Shown: piece by piece, positions 46,380-56,015 of the stretch
Position numbering within the stretch: position 1 is the stretch's first letter
Layout of the letters: each line of letters starts with the position of its first letter
The notes under the pieces: generated by a model
Databases searched by the model: none
Told to the model about the DNA's origin: nothing
What the model saw: only the letters and a program-made list of their open reading frames with translations
Made by a program: the position numbers and the translations under genes
Origin: Bacteroidales bacterium
Lineage (GTDB): Bacteria > Bacteroidota > Bacteroidia > Bacteroidales > FEN-979
Direction of reading: 5' to 3'
NCBI GenBank assembly: GCA_025355465.1
Contig: JANXZO010000019.1
Location: 1-62,704, forward strand
Length of the DNA stretch: 62,704 nt

Positions 46380-49117
46380 AGAACATCCGCCTTGTACTTT
46401 TTATTATCGGGACCCTTGTTGCACTTGGCGGGGTGATTATCTTCGGGTATCCGCTGCTCGAGAAATTCAGAACGCCGGCCGAATCTCCTTTTAAAGCCAT
46501 CCCGGGAAATACCGCCCTCATCTTTAAACTCAACAAAGCCGGGAATTTACTGGAAGAACTTAACCGGTCCAATCTCCTCTGGCGCGAACTATCACGCTTC
46601 CCGGGAGTAAGTACGGTTCGCGGAGAGCTTCAGGTGGTTGATTCCGCCAGCCGGAAAAATGCCAGGATCAACGAGATTCTTCAACACTTTAACATCTATA
46701 TCGCCATCAGCCTGAGCGGATGGAATACCTTCGGCTCGCTTTACCTTACCAACCTGCCACGGTCGGTTTCAGAATCCGACATCACCGATTTCGTGGTGGA
46801 GTTGTCGGGCGGCAAAGCCATCTTCACCGAATCGCCATACGCCACCACCAAAATTCTCAGGGTTCAGCCGAAAGGTTCGGGCGCCCCCTTCTATTTCGGA
46901 GTGCTCAAAGGGGTCTTCATGGGAAGTTATCATGCCGACCTCGTAAAAAAAGCCATCGACCGGCTTTCACTCAACACCCCGATGGCATCCTCCTATGGAT
47001 TTCAACGTGTGGAATCAACCACAGGCAAAAAAGTGGATGCCAACATTTATGTCAATTACCGCTTTTTCTCACTGGTCCTTTCCAAAATCACACGCACTGA
47101 GAACCTGGCCGATCTGATCAAATTCTCTCATTTTGCCGACTGGAGCGGTCTCGATCTTATCATCAAGAAAGATGAACTGCTCTTCAACGGATTTACCGTG
47201 GCGAACGACAGCAGCCAGCATTTCCTGGCTTTGTTTTCGGAACAGAAACCGCAGAAAGTCGAAATTTCCCGGATCATTCCGCAAAGTGTCTCCTATTTTA
47301 CATTTTACGGCTGGAGCGATCCTGCCCAGTTTGTTACCCGGCTGGAAACCCGCCTTGCCCGTGATGAAAACTACCCTGGCGAATCTTCAACGGCAACTAC
47401 CACCATAGAGCGATTCCAACTGAGCATCAATGACTACTTTATCCCCTGGCTTGGAAATGAAAGTTGTCTTTTTGTGATCCCCGACCCCGGAACCGGTCAG
47501 GATGCCTCCTATGCTGCGTTCCGTGCTGCTGATACCTTGCGGGCCGTGAAAAGTCTGCTTGCGCTTGCCGATACGATCGGGGTAAAAACAGATTCGGTCT
47601 CCTTCAACGGCACACGGATCTATCGCTGCCCATTACCCGATTTTCTACCCCTGCTTTTCGGCGACCTCTTTACGAAGATAAACATCAAATGTTTCGCACT
47701 GCTCGATGGCTACCTGATCTTTGCCGGTAACCAGAAGGAATTGGAATACGTCATCCAGTCCTACCGCGCAGGTGATAATCTCATCAGGAACCGGGAGTAT
47801 CTCGATTTTTCAGGAAACCTGTCTGCAAAATCTACTATTTTCTGCTATTTCAACACCCAAAACGCGATGTCGTCACTGCGCGGTATGCTCAATCTCGATC
47901 TCCGTGAACAACTCAACCCGGTGATGGACAGCATCCGGAAATTCGAATCGGTCGCCTTCCAATACAACAATCAGGATGGTCTCTTTTATTCCAATGTTTT
48001 CCTGCGCTACGACCCTAATTTCGGACGCGAAGGACCGCTGGAATGGCAAACCATCCTCGACACCACCATCGCCGGACGGCCACAGATCATCAATACCAGC
48101 CCGGGTAACGTTCCCATGGTGGTGGTCACGGATACATCGAACACCCTTTACCTGGTAGGCGCCGACGGCCACATTGCCTGGAAAAAACACATTATGGGCA
48201 CGCTGCGCGGCGAGGTAAATACCATTCTGCTTCCCGGCAGCGACTCTTCCTACTTGCTCTTCAACACCGAAACACACCTCTACCTGATCCGTTCCGACGG
48301 TCAGTTTGCGGATAAATATCCGATGCGGTTCCCGCTTCATGCCACTAATCCGCTGACTTACAAAGACTACGCTAAAAACCGGAACTATATCATCTACGTG
48401 GCATTCCACGACAACAGACTCTACAGCTTCACCCTCGACGGAAAATCGCAGACTAACTGGAACAGACCCAATCTGAAGGAGGAAATCATATTGCCCGCTA
48501 CCATCGCCGGTACCGGGAGCAAAGCGTACATCCTGATCCGCGGCAGGAATGGACACGGAATGATCGTTGGCAGGGATGGCACCGAAAAGATTGTGCAGGA
48601 TCCGCAGATCGTAAACTCTCCAAATTCTGGTTTCTATGCGAACCGAACCGGAAAAAAAGGGCTGTTCCTCACCACCAACTTAAGCGGAAAAGCTGTGTTT
48701 ATCCAGGGAAACGGAAAAACTTCTGAGGTCACGATGAACCTCTTCAGCCCCGATCACAGATTCTTTTACGAGGATATAACCGGCAGCCCTCAGCCGGAAT
48801 TTATTTATGTTGATAAAAGCAGGATCTATTACTACAACCGGAACTATAAACTGGTTTATTCTTATGCCTTCCGGCGCGAGGTCAACACCCCTCCCTTCCT
48901 GCTTCACACACCGGATGGTAAATCCATGATCGGTTTCGTGGTGCCGGAGACCAACGAGCTTTTCCTTTTCGATAAAAACGGCTATCGTGAACTTGAATCC
49001 GGCATCAGGGGAAATACACCTTTCAACATCGGGAAACTCAATTCTGGCGATCAGCTGAATCTTGTGGTAGGTTCAGGTAAAACGTTGAAGAATTTCAGGT
49101 TACCTAAGCTGCAGTAG
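46376..49117 (+). CDS. Large membrane-anchored protein of unknown function, with a propeller-like C-terminus
   Basis: 913 residues. An N-terminal membrane anchor (VLFIIGTLVALGGVIIFGYPLL) is followed by a region with DUF3352-like character (residues 40-560: IPGNTALIFKLNKAGNLLEEL; repeated LFAGNQKELEYV-type segments). The C-terminal third (about 600-913) shows strands such as TLYLVGADGHIAWKK, LYLIRSDGQFADKYPMR and RLYSFTLDGKSQTNW, reminiscent of PQQ-like propeller blades. It is translationally coupled to rnhB. I do not know its function; a periplasmic scaffold is one guess. Its end overlaps the convergent glucosaminidase gene by 18 bases. Confidence 0.65.
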   Translation: MKNIRLVLFIIGTLVALGGVIIFGYPLLEKFRTPAESPFKAIPGNTALIFKLNKAGNLLEELNRSNLLWRELSRFPGVSTVRGELQVVDSASRKNARINEILQHFNIYIAISLSGWNTFGSLYLTNLPRSVSESDITDFVVELSGGKAIFTESPYATTKILRVQPKGSGAPFYFGVLKGVFMGSYHADLVKKAIDRLSLNTPMASSYGFQRVESTTGKKVDANIYVNYRFFSLVLSKITRTENLADLIKFSHFADWSGLDLIIKKDELLFNGFTVANDSSQHFLALFSEQKPQKVEISRIIPQSVSYFTFYGWSDPAQFVTRLETRLARDENYPGESSTATTTIERFQLSINDYFIPWLGNESCLFVIPDPGTGQDASYAAFRAADTLRAVKSLLALADTIGVKTDSVSFNGTRIYRCPLPDFLPLLFGDLFTKINIKCFALLDGYLIFAGNQKELEYVIQSYRAGDNLIRNREYLDFSGNLSAKSTIFCYFNTQNAMSSLRGMLNLDLREQLNPVMDSIRKFESVAFQYNNQDGLFYSNVFLRYDPNFGREGPLEWQTILDTTIAGRPQIINTSPGNVPMVVVTDTSNTLYLVGADGHIAWKKHIMGTLRGEVNTILLPGSDSSYLLFNTETHLYLIRSDGQFADKYPMRFPLHATNPLTYKDYAKNRNYIIYVAFHDNRLYSFTLDGKSQTNWNRPNLKEEIILPATIAGTGSKAYILIRGRNGHGMIVGRDGTEKIVQDPQIVNSPNSGFYANRTGKKGLFLTTNLSGKAVFIQGNGKTSEVTMNLFSPDHRFFYEDITGSPQPEFIYVDKSRIYYYNRNYKLVYSYAFRREVNTPPFLLHTPDGKSMIGFVVPETNELFLFDKNGYRELESGIRGNTPFNIGKLNSGDQLNLVVGSGKTLKNFRLPKLQ

Positions 49118-50050
49118 CCTCCCCTTGGGCGGTTCAACCCCAACCGGGATATCGTTCCGCTTATAGAGCATCTTCAGCTTTATTCCGTACATCTGGGAAA
49201 TCATGAACAAGGTCTCCTTCTCCTTTACAACATGTGATGAGGCAGCGGCTTTGCGCCGTTTCGATTCAAGGTAGATCATTTGTCCCGGTTTGACCGTGGA
49301 ACTGGCACCCATATCGTTGTAGTCAGCGAGTTTTTTCGGACTGATATCAAAATCCCTTCCTATTTTATCAAGATTATCTCCCTTTCTTGAGATGGTCAGC
49401 TGCAACCGGTTGTTTTCGTAAATATGCCGGCCGTTGGCACCCTCTCCCACCACGATAAATGAACTCAGCCAAGCTTCGCGGCCCTTCACATCCTCAATGA
49501 GCTGGAAAGAATCGCCAAACGCAGAGGCAAAATCAGCATTGTCGTAGGTGTTGAGCGAATAGGTCTGGATCATTTTGATCAGTTTGTCCGCATACGTCGG
49601 ATCAGTGGCATATCCTGCTGCCTTCAATCCCCTGGCCCAACCTTGATAATCGGTCACATCGAGTTCGAACAGGCCCTTGTAACGGTCGCGAAGTGTGAGA
49701 AAATAGGAGTGGTCGCGAAACGACTCCACCGGATCAACATACTTTCTGAAACACTCCTGCTTTTCATCGTCATCCTGGTAAAAAGTATCTCCCTTCCACT
49801 CCTTGTGGCACTTTATTCCAAAATGATTGTTGGCCTCCATCGCCAGTCTGCTGGTCCCTGCACTCGATTCAATGATACCCTGTGCCAGGGTAATGCTGGC
49901 CGGAACACGATACACCATCATCTCCTTCACGGCAATTTCCTTGAATTGTTGAATATACCGCGTAACCAGCAAATTAAAGTCTGCCTGCTGAGCCATTACC
50001 CCACAGGAAAAACAAACCAAAAACAAAACAGGAATCCCCCTTCTCACCAT
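49100..50050 (-). CDS. Secreted N-acetylglucosaminidase (GH73-like) with LysM repeats
   Basis: 316 residues. Signal peptide to about residue 20 (ending CGVMAQ). The glucosaminidase domain covers 30-180: SITLAQGIIESSAGTSRLA contains the catalytic Glu, followed by NNHFGIKCHKEWKG and GWARGLKAAGYATDP. Two LysM-type peptidoglycan-binding segments follow (LTISRKGDNLDKIGRDFDIS and HVVKEKETLFMISQMYGIK). It would cleave glycan strands in the wall. Its start codon lies inside an 8-bp repeat array, and the murD stop is only 34 bases upstream, so the wall enzymes murL, murD and this gene share a transcript direction. Confidence 0.88.
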   Translation of the reverse strand: MVRRGIPVLFLVCFSCGVMAQQADFNLLVTRYIQQFKEIAVKEMMVYRVPASITLAQGIIESSAGTSRLAMEANNHFGIKCHKEWKGDTFYQDDDEKQECFRKYVDPVESFRDHSYFLTLRDRYKGLFELDVTDYQGWARGLKAAGYATDPTYADKLIKMIQTYSLNTYDNADFASAFGDSFQLIEDVKGREAWLSSFIVVGEGANGRHIYENNRLQLTISRKGDNLDKIGRDFDISPKKLADYNDMGASSTVKPGQMIYLESKRRKAAASSHVVKEKETLFMISQMYGIKLKMLYKRNDIPVGVEPPKGRLLQLR

Positions 50051-50097
50051 TTTACCATTTCACCATTTCACCATTTTATCATTTTATCTTTTCACCA
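50041..50097. repeat. Phased 8-bp TTTCACCA array between murD and the glucosaminidase gene
   Basis: Seven 8-base units run in register from 50042 to 50097 (for example TTTTACCA, TTTCACCA, TTTCACCA, TTTTATCA, TTTTATCT, TTTCACCA). The array holds the glucosaminidase start codon at one end and the last four codons and stop of murD at the other. Confidence 0.65.
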
Positions 50098-51457
50098 GCT
50101 CCCTGAACCTCTTCCCCCGCTCCTCAAAATTCCTGAACTCGTCGTAACTTGCGGCTGCCGGCGACAACAGGCAAACATTCCCCGGACGGGTTTCGCGGAG
50201 CGCAATTTCGCGAAAATTATCAAAGTTGTTGATATAGAATATCTTTTTATCCCCCAGACCCAGCGCCTCCAGCTGCTTTCCGATCCGCTTTCCCGCGGCA
50301 CCAACCAGTATCAGGTTCCGCACGCCGGAACCAACGAGAAACTCAGCCAGGGCAGAATAATCTATGCCGCGATCAAACCCACCCGCCACCAGCGTATCCA
50401 CCTTCGGGATGGCTTTGATAGCCTCTATGCTGGCCTCCGGTATAGTGGCAATGGAGTCGTTGTAGAAGTGAATTCCGTGAAATACTCCCACATATTCAAG
50501 CCGGTGCTCAAGTCCCTTGAAAGTGGCGATTCCATCCCCGATCATCTCCGGCGCGATACCCAGCAACATGCATACATTCGTTGCGGCCAGGATATTTTTC
50601 AGGTTATGTTCACCGCAAAGAAAACGGTCCTGGTGAATGTCCCATACTTCAGTAGTGGTTGTTCTGTCGGAAAACATCACCTTGCCATCTTCAATAAAGC
50701 CGCCCTTCACGTTGGAATCATTCAGTGAAAATGGATAACGTATTCCCTTCACCTCAGTTGTGGTCATGTGACCGCTCACCAGCGGGTCGTCGGCATTAAA
50801 AACGACCAGGTCGCCAGTCTGCTGGTTTCTGAAGATATTCATCTTGGCAAGCTGGTATTCAAGGTAACCGGCGTAGGCATCAAGATGCTCCTGGAAAAGA
50901 TTCAGCAAAACGGCAATGTGCGGAGCTTTGTGTATATATTCGAGCTGATGTGAAGAGAGTTCAAAAACAATCAGGGTCTGGGGTGTTATCAGGTCGATAT
51001 AATGAAATGCAGGATTTCCGATATTGCCCACCAGCAGCGCATCCTCCCCTGCTGTTTTAAGAATATGATAGATAAGGCTTGCCGTAGTGCTCTTACCCTT
51101 GGTGCCGGTAACGCCGATAACCTGATCTCCGTATGCCTGTAAAAACAAATCGGTCTGAGAGGTCACCTTTTCCACCGGTAATTTGGGGTCAAGATTCCAG
51201 ATCGGAATACCCGGTGAACGAAATACAACGTCAAACTTCGACAGTTCGGCCAGGTATCCGCTGCCGGTAACAAAGTTTACGAAGGGATCGTTCGCTACCA
51301 GCGGATTGTTGCAAACCTCCTTGCTCGAGTCTGCGATGAAGATCTGCTTTTTTGGAAAATGGTTGCGTAATAATTCATAACTGGCCTGGCCTTCGCGTCC
51401 GAACCCCAGCAAAACGATCGATTTTTCGGCAAGGTCTGCCAATATTTTCTCAATCAT
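50084..51457 (-). CDS. murD: UDP-N-acetylmuramoyl-L-alanine-glutamate ligase (MurD, possibly MurD2-type)
   Basis: 457 residues, usual for MurD. The N-terminal Rossmann-like domain has SIVLLGFGREGQASYELL, the central domain the ATP loop GVTGTKGKSTTASLIYHIL, then FELSSHQLEY and LNLFQEHLDAYAGY. The C-terminal domain has DSIATIPEASIEAIKAI and LSPAAASYDEFRNFEERG. The standard reaction adds D-Glu to UDP-MurNAc-L-Ala. The preceding gene overlaps it by 8 bases (ATGATTGA) and resembles MurL. In bacteria with MurL the ligase is a MurD2 that adds L-Glu instead, so the substrate stereochemistry here is an open question that sequence reading cannot settle. Confidence 0.9.
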   Translation of the reverse strand: MIEKILADLAEKSIVLLGFGREGQASYELLRNHFPKKQIFIADSSKEVCNNPLVANDPFVNFVTGSGYLAELSKFDVVFRSPGIPIWNLDPKLPVEKVTSQTDLFLQAYGDQVIGVTGTKGKSTTASLIYHILKTAGEDALLVGNIGNPAFHYIDLITPQTLIVFELSSHQLEYIHKAPHIAVLLNLFQEHLDAYAGYLEYQLAKMNIFRNQQTGDLVVFNADDPLVSGHMTTTEVKGIRYPFSLNDSNVKGGFIEDGKVMFSDRTTTTEVWDIHQDRFLCGEHNLKNILAATNVCMLLGIAPEMIGDGIATFKGLEHRLEYVGVFHGIHFYNDSIATIPEASIEAIKAIPKVDTLVAGGFDRGIDYSALAEFLVGSGVRNLILVGAAGKRIGKQLEALGLGDKKIFYINNFDNFREIALRETRPGNVCLLSPAAASYDEFRNFEERGKRFRELVKR

Positions 51458-52829
51458 GTAGACGCACTCTTAGCATCGTTTCAAACTCAGGGGGCAGATG
51501 GTTCTCCGGGTCGAAGTTTATCAATGCCTGGTCAAAGGCTGCTTCCGAAATGCCATCTCCTTCCAGTTGGCCGGCGTAGTGCTCCACGAGTGCAGGCAAC
51601 GGCTGGTTGTCATTGCACCGAAGTCGTTGTTGCAAGGCAAGGTTTACCTCGTCAATGGTCCCCACGCATTCAAAAGGCTTCTCCTCATCCATTCCGGTAA
51701 GCTGATCAAACAGCGGGATCAGCGACATATCTTCAAACAGGTTCTTTCCGAAAATGGCAACCAGCTGGTCCTCCTTTATAAACGGCGACAGAATAATCCA
51801 GGTAAACAGGCATTTTGCACACGCCCCGCACCAGCTGTCGGTTTTACTTCCGGCATTGCAACTTTTAAACACCCTGTGATAGCGGGTAAACCCGGCAAAC
51901 AACTTTGCGATCTGCAGTTCACTGAGCGGCCGCAGGAAACTGAAATAATGCATTCCGGGGGCCACAAATTTATTCAGGTAGTTGATAAAGTCTGTTTCAA
52001 ATTCATATGATTTTGAATACTGATGATTGATGGTGGTTCCTTCGATGGTCGCTTCGTTGGCGCTCGATTCATTCGATAAAACAAGATAACTTTTGTCGGA
52101 AAGATGGGCGGCCAGCAGCGCGGTAAAGGCGAGCATGGCCGAAAAAGGGGTGTGACCATTAAGAAAACCGAGGGCATTCAATTCCAGCAATGTTGGATCA
52201 ATGGTCCTGAACCCTTCTACGAGCTGCTCCCGCGGGATCCCTGCAGCATTTACCGACTCCAGGGTTGCACCCCGTGGATTCAGGATGAACGGCAGGTTCC
52301 CTTTATCCATCCCCAAAATCTCAAGGGTTACCGACGAATCCTTGCCCCCTCCGACCGGGATCAGGCAACTGCCCTGAGCCTGGCTTCGAAATGGCTGTAA
52401 AAACTTCCCGCTGTCAGCTTCCATTTCGAACAGTGTCTCTTGACAGGCTTCAATTCCGTTGAGGTAAAAGAACTCGCCCAACCCATGAAACCAGAGCTTT
52501 TTCCACCAGGCAACCTGCTCACCGGTTAGGGCATGAGGCTTAATAATGATTCGGGGAGAACAAGCGGCTTTCCAGTAGCTGATCATCTCAACAAGCCCGA
52601 TATTGAAGAGGAATACGGGCAAACCGGCAATAATCCGCTCATCAGAGATAAACCATGACTTCCGTGGTAACCTGAGCGCGGGATAAAAATGATAACGGTC
52701 GGCCAGGTTGAAATGAAAACGCACATCCAGTCCGCGCTCCGTGAGGGTGTAGGTGTAATTTTCAAAGATAAAATGGGGAAACTCCTCCCGTAGCTCAAGA
52801 AATTTTTCCTGCCTCGTTGACTTGACCAT
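51450..52829 (-). CDS. murL: MurL-like glutamate epimerase of peptidoglycan precursor (PP-loop ATPase fold)
   Basis: 459 residues. An N-terminal domain (1-140) precedes a PP-loop: LIPVGGGKDSSVTLEIL near 156-172, then SNESSANEATIEGT near 252-265. A cysteine set, Cys324 plus WCGACAKC (334-340), could bind a metal. This layout and the 8-base overlap with murD fit MurL, an enzyme known from Xanthomonas that uses ATP to convert UDP-MurNAc-L-Ala-L-Glu to the D-Glu form after MurD2 has added L-Glu. Adenylation of the glutamate carboxylate would suit the PP-loop. MurL identity is inferred from pattern and context, not from an alignment. Another PP-loop amidotransferase-type enzyme is the main alternative. 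Confidence 0.6.
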   Translation of the reverse strand: MVKSTRQEKFLELREEFPHFIFENYTYTLTERGLDVRFHFNLADRYHFYPALRLPRKSWFISDERIIAGLPVFLFNIGLVEMISYWKAACSPRIIIKPHALTGEQVAWWKKLWFHGLGEFFYLNGIEACQETLFEMEADSGKFLQPFRSQAQGSCLIPVGGGKDSSVTLEILGMDKGNLPFILNPRGATLESVNAAGIPREQLVEGFRTIDPTLLELNALGFLNGHTPFSAMLAFTALLAAHLSDKSYLVLSNESSANEATIEGTTINHQYSKSYEFETDFINYLNKFVAPGMHYFSFLRPLSELQIAKLFAGFTRYHRVFKSCNAGSKTDSWCGACAKCLFTWIILSPFIKEDQLVAIFGKNLFEDMSLIPLFDQLTGMDEEKPFECVGTIDEVNLALQQRLRCNDNQPLPALVEHYAGQLEGDGISEAAFDQALINFDPENHLPPEFETMLRVRLHD

Positions 52830-52847
52830 GAAATGGTATTATATTTG
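52817..52847 (+). promoter_or_regulatory. Promoter of algH (yqgE)
   Basis: TTG at 52817-52819, a 20-base spacer, and TATATTTG at 52840-52847 match the Bacteroidota consensus fully. The start site would be near 52853, supporting the ATG at 52888 rather than an earlier one. The -33 box lies within the first codons of the divergent murL gene. Confidence 0.7.
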
Positions 52848-52861
52848 TCAGGATGCTGTCG

Positions 52862-52869
52862 CAAAACTA
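52862..52869 (-). promoter_or_regulatory. -7 element for the murL-murD transcript
   Basis: TAGTTTTG on the minus strand, an exact -7 match. Transcription would start near 52856, giving a 27-base leader to the murL ATG. It faces the algH promoter, so the two RNA polymerase footprints overlap. Confidence 0.4.
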
Positions 52870-52887
52870 CGAAAATTGTCCGACATC

Positions 52888-53448
52888 ATGGAAAAACGAA
52901 TCATAAAACCGAAGCAGGGTATCATCCTCATTTCAGAGCCGTCGCTGCGTGACTTTTACTTCCGCCAGTCTGTGGTGTTGCTGGCCGAACACAACGAAGA
53001 TGGAACCTTCGGCGTGATCATTAATAAACCCATCGAAGCCCGCGTAAAAGATGTGATCAGGGATTTCCCCGATTTCGATGGAACCATGTCTCTTGGCGGA
53101 CCCGTAAAAACCGATAGTATTTTCTTCATTCACACCCTCGATGAAATTGAAGATGCCATGCCGATCATGGAGGGTCTTTACTGGGGAGGCAACATCGATG
53201 TCATCCGCGACCGGATTCTGGCAGGGACTTTACACGACAACGAGATCCGGTTCTTCGCTGGATACGCTGGATGGAATCCAAGTCAGCTGGATGCCGAGAT
53301 CAAAGAAAAATCGTGGGTGCTCTCCCATATCACAGCCGAAGAGGTGATCAGACAAAAACAGGAAAGACGCTGGAGCGATTATCTGAAAAACATGGGCACG
53401 GATTACGCCATCTGGGCCAATTTTCCGGCCGACCCCTCTTTCAACTAA
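52888..53448 (+). CDS. YqgE/AlgH family protein
   Basis: 186 residues from the ATG at 52888; an ATG at 52822 lies upstream of the transcription start. It shows the family pattern: GIILISEPSLRDFYFRQSVVLLAEH, then FGVIINKPIE, SLGGPVKTDSIFFIH, and YWGGNIDVIRDR, followed by FFAGYAGWNPSQLDAEI. The biochemical role is unclear; AlgH in Pseudomonas is linked to regulation. It diverges from murL and is followed 9 bases later by a membrane protein. Confidence 0.9.
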   Translation: MEKRIIKPKQGIILISEPSLRDFYFRQSVVLLAEHNEDGTFGVIINKPIEARVKDVIRDFPDFDGTMSLGGPVKTDSIFFIHTLDEIEDAMPIMEGLYWGGNIDVIRDRILAGTLHDNEIRFFAGYAGWNPSQLDAEIKEKSWVLSHITAEEVIRQKQERRWSDYLKNMGTDYAIWANFPADPSFN

Positions 53449-54179: not shown

Positions 54180-56015
54180 TTAGTCAACCAAAACTTTGCG
54201 CGTCACCTGAAAGTCTCCCGCTTTTACAACAAGGAAGTAAGCTCCGGCGCTTAATCCCGACAGATCTGTTTCCACCAGGTTTTTTCCGGGCTTCAGGATT
54301 CCGGCCTCCTGCAGTCGTAAAGTTTGGCCGGTCACATTCATAATTTCGATGTTTACCCTTGCCGCAGTTTCCAGCGCTACAACAAACCGCGTCGTCAGGT
54401 GTGCCGGGTTCGGATAACTCTGTGACACCTCAAAACCTGGTCTGTTCTGCATCTCACCGGTACCCACGAAAAATCCCATCGGGAAGTTGATGTACTCCAT
54501 GAAGTTCTCATCGCCGGCACCGGTTCCCGGGGCATAATCCTCCTGAAACACGACATGAACGGTTTGATCTGTAACGGGAGCAACAGCCGGGTAAACGCAT
54601 TCGGAGTATATGAACTGAAAATCGGAGGTCAGCTCCTTAATGCCATTCCAGGCGCCTCCGCCATCTGCAGTGGCATTGCTGTAAATACGACGAAAGTAGA
54701 TGCCATCCACCGGATTTGCCGGTGTAAGGGCCGAATAAACCACCACGAGATTGTCGTTCGCATCAATGGAAAGCTGTGGCTGTGATGTTAGTCCTACACC
54801 ATAACTTGGCTGGCCGCTTAAAATATTCAGGGTTGCCGTATCCGGAACTACCCATCCGATGAGATTACCGCCTGCCACCAGGTAATCAAGTGTATAAGAA
54901 CTCACCGTAGTCGAATCCAGAGTAGGCATCGATTCATTCCAGTAAATTAGCCCTTCGGTGCTCGTGGGATAATAATACCATCCGCCCGGAGGTGTGGTAA
55001 TGACGTCATGAAACCAGATGTCCCTTCCGAAAACTACGTGAACCTTGCCCTGCGAGTCAAGCGCAATGGCCGATGTTCCGTCGCCGCTCCCGTAAGGAAC
55101 CGTCACATCAGGAATGTTGAATGGATTCCATGGAGACTGATATACCACAGTCTTCTGCCAGGTATTGCCATTGTCGGTCGATTTGAACACCAGGCCGTCA
55201 AAATAGTCGAACCCGTAAGTAAAAGCCAGGGTTTTGCCCACCGGCTGGGCCCAGAAGTAACGCAAACTGGCGATTCCGGTAAAAAAATCCGAGCCCAGTC
55301 CGTCGATGAGCATCCCATTGATCTCCCAGGTAACTCCGCCATCCGAAGAGCGGTAATAAAGCAGTGCATCATCCTGCCCCAGATACGGATCGTCATAAAC
55401 ATAAGCCAACACATGAATATACTGATGTTCCGTTCCGCTGGTGATCATCGAATGCCATACAAGCGAATAGTTTCCCGGAGGCGGAGGCAGAACGCTCTCA
55501 ATCCAGCTGCCGGTTCCCTTTGTCTCCCGTCTCAGTAATTTAATGGGTCCGTCGCCGGCCACATACTGATAGTGCGCAACGATCTCACCATTCGGGCCCC
55601 ACGGTGCATAACTCGGAAAAGCGTTGTTGGCATCATTACCGAGATGCAATGCAGCGCCGCTCCAGGTACTCCCGTTGTTGAAATTGTAGGCGGTGCCACG
55701 ATCGGGAAGCCCGGACGCTGCCTTGAACATCCAGGTAGCGCCAAGGTTGCCGTCAGGGTAGGCATAAATTCGGTTCATCATGTTCCCGGAATTATAGGTC
55801 TGGGTGTCATACCACGTATTTCCGATCACAAAAGCACTGCTTGGCTTCTCGCCGGGGATAATTTTTCCCGCAACGGACAACGCCTCTTCAGGTGAAGGTG
55901 CAGGTGCCATCAGAACGGCCTTTCCGCGGTCCATTCGATCGGTAACATGCTGCTTCTGCGCGTAGGTTGCTGAAGCTATCAAGGTGAGCGATAAAATGAG
56001 TAAATTTTTTTTCAT
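54180..56015 (-). CDS. Secreted BNR/sialidase-like repeat protein with T9SS type A sorting domain
   Basis: 611 residues with a signal peptide (MKKNLLILSLTLIASATYAQ). Two Asp-box motifs are visible, YRSSDGGVTW near 230 and FKSTDNGNTWQKT near 290, of the kind found in sialidase-type propellers. The Arg triad of a catalytic sialidase is not evident, so this may be a binding or structural propeller. The last 80 residues are a type A sorting domain (VSQSYPNPAHLTTRFVV; LSAGAYFLVVKAG). A long N-terminal prosegment contains APSPEEALSVAGKIIPGEK. Its own -7 element is seen upstream. Confidence 0.8.
   Translation of the reverse strand: MKKNLLILSLTLIASATYAQKQHVTDRMDRGKAVLMAPAPSPEEALSVAGKIIPGEKPSSAFVIGNTWYDTQTYNSGNMMNRIYAYPDGNLGATWMFKAASGLPDRGTAYNFNNGSTWSGAALHLGNDANNAFPSYAPWGPNGEIVAHYQYVAGDGPIKLLRRETKGTGSWIESVLPPPPGNYSLVWHSMITSGTEHQYIHVLAYVYDDPYLGQDDALLYYRSSDGGVTWEINGMLIDGLGSDFFTGIASLRYFWAQPVGKTLAFTYGFDYFDGLVFKSTDNGNTWQKTVVYQSPWNPFNIPDVTVPYGSGDGTSAIALDSQGKVHVVFGRDIWFHDVITTPPGGWYYYPTSTEGLIYWNESMPTLDSTTVSSYTLDYLVAGGNLIGWVVPDTATLNILSGQPSYGVGLTSQPQLSIDANDNLVVVYSALTPANPVDGIYFRRIYSNATADGGGAWNGIKELTSDFQFIYSECVYPAVAPVTDQTVHVVFQEDYAPGTGAGDENFMEYINFPMGFFVGTGEMQNRPGFEVSQSYPNPAHLTTRFVVALETAARVNIEIMNVTGQTLRLQEAGILKPGKNLVETDLSGLSAGAYFLVVKAGDFQVTRKVLVD

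Follow-up and report, generated by a model that had tools for sequence, protein, structure and literature searches.

Contig JANXZO010000019.1 of the Bacteroidales bacterium assembly GCA_025355465.1 (GTDB lineage FEN-979), whose 62,704 nucleotides form the window analyzed here, carries on its minus strand two overlapping open reading frames (ORFs) that a preliminary description had proposed to be a MurL-like epimerase gene and a murD gene, and hence a possible alternative route to the D-glutamate (D-Glu) of peptidoglycan. Such a route, made up of MurD2 and MurL, is known from Xanthomonas oryzae (Feng 2017, as reviewed in PMC8788868). Our analysis confirmed both ORFs, of 459 amino acids (51450-52829, minus strand) and 457 amino acids (50084-51457, minus strand), together with the PP-loop motif, the set of cysteines (C324, C334, C337 and C340) and the overlap of exactly 8 bases that had been pointed out for them. 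The features of this gene pair are as follows:

51450..52829, minus strand: MurL-like PP-loop protein of 459 amino acids (NF041275, 250.4 bits, E = 2.5e-74, residues 70-454)
52335..52352, minus strand: GGGKDS PP-loop motif, MurL residues 160-165, invariant in 38 aligned rows, window included
51810..51860, minus strand: Cys4 motif Cx9CxxCxxC, MurL residues 324, 334, 337 and 340, by analogy a QueC-like metal site
51450..51457, minus strand: 8-base overlap of the MurL stop and the MurD2 start, ATGATTGA in minus-strand reading
50084..51457, minus strand: MurD2-type ligase of 457 amino acids, putatively L-Glu-adding (TIGR01087, 319 bits, and specificity residues)
50888..50890, minus strand: MurD2 Glu190, aligned with Escherichia coli D182 and X. 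oryzae E197
50450..50452, minus strand: MurD2 Ile336, aligned with E. coli K319
50369..50371, minus strand: MurD2 Arg363, aligned with E. coli K348 and X. oryzae R358

The 459-residue protein matched the NF041275 profile (MurL_Xanthmoales equivalog) with high significance and over nearly its full length (model positions 57-444 of 447), which bears out its proposed likeness to MurL. One scan of named genomes revealed at least 574 stretches encoding a MurL relative, of which 80 were kept as our set of named loci. Most of these come from metagenome-assembled genomes with the label Bacteroidales or Bacteroidota, and six carry the label Bacillota. The MurL-MurD2 loci of the latter, so classed by record label (L154, L169, L172, L175, L183 and L187), form one clade with a support of 99 in a quick tree.

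The partner ORF scored 319 bits on TIGR01087, over the cut-off of 211.95. As summarized in PMC8788868, E. coli MurD has D182 and K348 where X. oryzae MurD2 has E197 and R358; putting both E. coli residues into MurD2 makes it use D-Glu instead of L-Glu, and the K319T exchange makes E. coli MurD accept L-Glu. When aligned to E. coli MurD, the window protein has E at D182, I at K319 and R at K348. The same residues prevail among MurL-linked MurDs (an alignment of 105 rows, with at least six contigs fetched twice and a few fragments): E at position 182 in 99/103, I at 319 in 104/104 and R at 348 in 104/104. All 17 MurDs of the division and cell wall (dcw) cluster that we aligned have D, K and K at positions 182, 319 and 348; 15 of them are encoded between mraY and ftsW and two beside one of these genes at a contig end. 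By this comparison, the window MurD has the residues predicted for L-Glu use at the two sites described in X. oryzae MurD2 (E190 and R363), and I336 in addition.

The association of the two genes was followed across 110 loci, comprising the 80 named ones and 30 from surveyed genomes, with the window included and at least six contigs counted twice. In 99 loci a MurD gene lies downstream of MurL in the same orientation; in five the two are fused, in one they overlap by 94 bases, and in five no MurD was found beside MurL. MurL and MurD are thus adjacent, overlapping or fused in 105/110 loci, a count that includes L122, where only a 169-amino-acid MurD piece lies 850 bases from MurL; no other gap exceeds 242 bases. 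Of the 74 named pairs that are not fused, 29 overlap by 8 bases, more than share any other spacing. Because the adjacency recurs across so many loci, it is more than chance. The five fusions (L138, L143, L159, L171 and L174, labelled Bacteroidota) encode single proteins of 834-907 amino acids, and the one that we scanned matched both the MurL and the MurD profile; on the MurL tree, the fused forms cannot be explained by a single fusion or fission. The five loci without a neighboring MurD are G033, G039, G092, L184 and G096. Large ORFs lie between MurL and MurD2 in G033 (L199; 1599 and 526 amino acids) and in G039 (L200; 544 amino acids), and in G092 another full MurD is encoded on a different contig. 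For L184 and G096 no MurD was seen beside MurL.

We then considered other sources of D-Glu. The window genome, which is 98.8% complete, has no match to PF01177 and none to TIGR00067, so that no glutamate racemase (MurI) was found; a hidden divergent MurI was rejected on the lack of any PF01177 match. A set of 100 relatives was compiled from the window genome (G000), 42 genomes of the same family and a single representative of each of 57 further families in the order. In this set, 60 genomes had a MurL match (that of G094 being weak and partial), 36 had a MurI over the TIGR00067 cut-off of 146.65 bits, none had both, and four had neither (G006, G020, G026 and G057). Counted by family (n = 58), MurL was present in 21, MurI in 36, both in none and neither in one (Fisher p ~7e-15). 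Among 50 MurL genomes taken from the 80 named loci, which may partly overlap the set of 100, no MurI exceeded the cut-off, and 13 had weaker matches of at most 78.6 bits. For comparison, MurI exceeded the cut-off in 329 of 392 genomes sampled across the phylum (completeness of at least 90% requested), with a weaker match in 12. A D-amino-acid transaminase was likewise rejected as the D-Glu source, as all homologues fell below the cut-off of 277.45 bits in the 100 relatives, the best in the window genome reaching 36.8 bits. The overlapping murL and murD2 are the only recognizable source of peptidoglycan D-Glu in the window genome.

To place MurL structurally, we modelled the window protein with AlphaFold2 (predicted local distance difference test score 92.9, predicted template modelling score 0.92). 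Alignment of the model by VIA-align gave QatC at Z = 18.2 (324 residues, root-mean-square deviation 3.9), QueC at Z = 13.3 and Cap9 at Z = 12.1, with the next rows at 8.5 or below. MurL is therefore predicted to have a PP-loop fold of the QueC/QatC type, an assignment that rests on VIA-align over Foldseek candidates, so that families beyond those candidates may match too. A sequence search for a solved MurL structure returned a single insignificant match (E = 0.89). The QatC resemblance also suggested a defence system, a reading that we rejected, as PADLOC matched none of three MurLs.

MurL shares with the QueC family the predicted fold, a GGxDS-type loop and a CxxCxxC-containing Cys4 motif. 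GGGKDS and Cx9CxxCxxC were both present in 38/38 aligned MurLs, window included, whereas the motifs published for QueC are SGGxDS and, for zinc, C(x)8CxxCxxC (PMC13329287); the MurL loop thus begins with G instead of S, and its cysteine spacing, known here from sequence, is longer by one residue. MurL differs further in its proposed substrate, a UDP-linked dipeptide, and is only ~9% identical to QatC. The Pfam QueC family (PF06508) gave no match for window MurL at E up to 1, its cut-off not being reached, and matched 5/38 MurL members (best E = 0.01); DUF6395 matched 34/38 (best E = 5.1e-5) and stayed under its cut-off for the window protein.

QueC is described as converting a carboxylate to an amide and a nitrile with ATP (PMC13329287), and X. 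oryzae MurL as requiring ATP, producing AMP and acting in the L to D direction only (PMC8788868). The reviews call the MurL mechanism unclear (PMC8788868, PMC5808125), and an adenylation hypothesis is already present in PMC8788868. What our model adds is a tie between that hypothesis and the QueC fold; the name MurL is absent from the main text of two recent QueC-family papers (PMC13329287, PMC13279940). Since the predicted fold is QueC-like, QueC acts on a carboxylate with ATP and MurL yields AMP, we propose that the PP-loop of MurL, with ATP, would adenylate the alpha-carboxylate of the terminal L-Glu and so make the C-alpha proton more acidic, after which inversion at C-alpha and hydrolysis would follow. 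In the order of reactions that we infer, MurD2 would attach ordinary (L-) glutamate and MurL would invert the attached residue in place.

A further element of the window genome bears on this route. The second-best MurD match in this genome is encoded in the dcw cluster and is confined to positions 270-440 of the TIGR01087 model:

G000:C43:55884-56432 (L039:7885-8433), minus strand: half-MurD of 182 amino acids, corresponding to the C-terminal half of MurD and encoded between mraY and ftsW

The gene order there is rsmH-ftsI-murE-mraY-X-ftsW-murG-murC-ftsQ-ftsA-ftsZ, where X is the half-MurD, identified by profile, and the other names were read from translations; mraY ends 4 bases upstream of the half-MurD start. 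The protein is without the UDP-binding and ATP-binding (P-loop) domains. A half-MurD of ~182 amino acids is the only dcw MurD in 48 of the 100 genomes, window genome included, and 42 copies were extracted for the counts below, which leave out those of G016, G031, G043, G045, G057 and G076. All 42 reading frames are open, 36 are exactly 182 amino acids long, and the mean pairwise identity is 55%. The order mraY-half-ftsW was found in 40 of the 41 copies from other genomes, the remaining one being cut by a contig end.

Across the relatives, 45 of the 60 MurL genomes have a half-MurD, 11 have a full dcw MurD (in one of them, G094, the gene is split over two contigs), and in four neither was found (G036, G041, G042 and G062). 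A half-MurD without a MurL match occurs in three of the 48 genomes (G006, G020 and G057). A full MurD is present in 35 of the 36 MurI genomes, the exception being G059, which is 70% complete; half-MurDs in these genomes were judged among the matches listed, and weaker ones may exist. G048 has an additional 111-amino-acid C-terminal MurD piece on another contig. The half-MurD of G057 (L191, G057:C4:296000-306000; 98% complete) is strongly diverged, at 48 bits; that genome yielded neither MurI nor MurL nor a full MurD, and no murC was found in its dcw cluster.

The half-MurD resembles the canonical dcw MurD in being its C-terminal part, in the same place and on the same branch, away from MurD2 (support of 100 in a quick tree), and its start Met is also present inside full-length dcw MurDs. 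The approximately unbiased test, run with the family copies reduced to 13, did not reject a single clade of half-MurDs, whether all of them were included (p = 0.36) or G096 was omitted (p = 0.12); the truncation may be a single event or a repeated one. It differs from the canonical protein in lacking the two binding domains and in not conserving K319, K348 and the HN contact: among the 42 copies, K is present at K348 in six and at K319 in 19, no copy has the His that makes the HN contact, and the ATP- and Glu-contacting residues are lost. Of the 65 positions invariant in canonical MurDs, 34 are retained in at least 85% of copies, and the fold core is partly kept. The ratio of nonsynonymous to synonymous substitution rates (dN/dS) has a median of 0.089 (range 0.027-0.286; 29 of 861 pairs, with dS of 0.05-1.5), by which measure the half-MurD is under purifying selection.

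That selection acts on a half-MurD unable to catalyze the reaction suggests a function in docking or structure. One form of this idea, to which we give nearly an even chance, is that the half-MurD is a non-catalytic subunit that takes MurD's place in docking on the membrane Mur complex (MurG, MraY, FtsW), or that binds MurL or MurD2 and positions them there. The conserved place between mraY and ftsW and the partly kept fold core with lost ligand contacts would fit such a subunit, and the membrane Mur complex is a plausible site because MurG has been reported to bind MurD (PMC6420597); but the one MurD partner for which we met a mapped site, the Acinetobacter protein MigC, is described as binding MurD residues 53-103, which are missing from the half (PMC12208494), and a full MurD occupies the same place in eleven MurL genomes. 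More generally, selection may maintain the MurD C-terminal domain for a task in the complex that builds the wall, one that involves no catalysis and can be separated from ligation. On this view, once MurL and MurD2 had taken on the chemistry, Bacteroidales lineages would have dropped the catalytic two-thirds of dcw MurD by restarting translation at the internal Met, and retained the docking half alone; we advance this tentatively, at somewhat less than even odds. It is improbable that the half-MurD is just a relic in decay, or that it serves spacing and translational coupling between mraY and ftsW: its start just after mraY, the erosion of its catalytic residues and the divergence of the G057 copy would agree with this, but the open frames, uniform length, sequence identity, low dN/dS and retained positions argue against it.

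Taken together, we consider it about 90% probable that the MurL-MurD2 pair replaces MurI as the D-Glu route in the window genome and that the dcw murD was then halved in many lineages. Once the route had taken the place of MurI, the dcw murD would have dropped its UDP- and ATP-binding domains, leaving a C-terminal half that is selected and probably catalytically unable. The profile match, the MurD2 residues and the exclusion of MurI lend support to the alternative D-Glu route first suggested for this member of the Bacteroidota. Of the two outcomes that the preliminary description had named as speaking against it, a lack of similarity to MurL profiles and a typical murI together with a D-Glu-only MurD, we observed neither. 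The system is like that of X. oryzae in that a MurL-profile protein stands beside a MurD-like ligase with E and R as specificity residues, in genomes without recognized D-Glu enzymes, and differs in its phylum, its sub-cut-off score, its fused forms and the residual dcw half-MurD.

Several observations weigh against this interpretation. At 250.4 bits, window MurL lies far under the curated Xanthomonadales cut-off of 700 bits and so does not qualify as an NF041275 equivalog by score, nor was that cut-off reached by any of the 100 relatives. A Foldseek search with the MurL model returned nothing at E <= 0.001. Four MurD2s retain D at position 182, three of them from Bacillota-labelled loci. The broader PF01177 (Asp/Glu racemase) family matches 49 of the 100 relatives, namely all 36 MurI genomes and 13 of the 60 MurL genomes; the proteins of these 13, mostly of 230-270 amino acids, score 43.8 bits or less on TIGR00067, with G011 and G074 lacking any match, and may be other racemases. 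In the phylum sample, MurI over the cut-off is missing in 63/392 genomes and a full MurL is present only in the window genome, with partial matches of 20-22 bits in two further genomes. Missing MurI alone therefore does not imply MurL, and the phylum, with 62 sampled genomes in neither group, must have further D-Glu routes or racemases that score low. Ten MurL genomes without a detected MurI have a full dcw MurD with D-Glu-type residues (G054, G055, G068, G069, G082, G087, G088, G090, G092 and G093; loci L094-L103).

The last point and the PF01177 proteins would suit a merely accessory MurL-MurD2 pair, with the main D-Glu coming from a broad-specificity racemase or from an enzyme with a second activity, for example a DapF that is bifunctional, either of which may still supply it. 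A bifunctional DapF has reportedly been found in Chlamydia. We regard this as very unlikely for the window genome, which has zero PF01177 matches and a single full-length MurD, of the L-Glu type. There is an equally slim chance that the PP-loop protein acts otherwise on the dipeptide precursor or another carboxylate, by amidation or conjugation, with D-Glu from an unrecognized racemase: its score is below the curated cut-off, and its fold neighbors QueC, Cap9 and QatC are described as carrying out ATP-dependent amide, nitrile or conjugation chemistry, or a reaction that the published accounts leave unresolved, but the L-Glu-type residues of the partner ligase, the MurI exclusion and the fusion with the ligase speak against it.

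Two neighbors of the pair were also analyzed:

49100..50050, minus strand: glucosaminidase with LysM, probably outside the route, a neighbor only in the most window-like loci
52822..53448, plus strand: divergent YqgE/AlgH-family gene, a conserved upstream neighbor of MurL (best profile 120.7 bits, under the 225-bit cut-off)

The preliminary description had tied the pair to peptidoglycan synthesis both through the overlap and through co-direction with the glucosaminidase, which lies 33 bases downstream of murD on the same strand. The MurL-MurD adjacency recurs; the argument from the glucosaminidase fails, since a glucosaminidase is close downstream in 11/79 named loci, all among the most window-like (a lower bound, some loci being short), and was rejected as a pathway partner because it is not conserved next to the pair. 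The divergent yqgE/algH gene is near MurL in 64/79 named loci. A 611-amino-acid protein encoded at 54180-56015 (minus strand) has a type IX secretion system (T9SS) type A sorting domain (TIGR04183, 43.8 bits, cut-off 23), consistent with the T9SS-bearing host first described.

The taxa listed with the MurD2/MurL route are Gamma- and Alphaproteobacteria and actinobacteria (PMC8788868), to which a 2018 review adds cyanobacteria, a fungus and an amoeba with orthologs of low similarity (PMC5808125). Among the matches listed in our literature search, judged by title and abstract opening and with subscription papers mostly outside its reach, we found no report of MurL in Bacteroidota or of the half-MurD. 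Our analysis would thus extend a D-Glu route so far described in few other bacterial groups to many uncultured Bacteroidales, and QueC-like adenylation is a suggested structural basis for an epimerase of unclear mechanism. Inhibitors of glutamate racemase should, by the same reasoning, spare these bacteria, and inhibitors of MurD2 or MurL might act on them. The retained half-MurD would constitute a natural experiment through which a structural role of Mur ligases, apart from catalysis, becomes testable.

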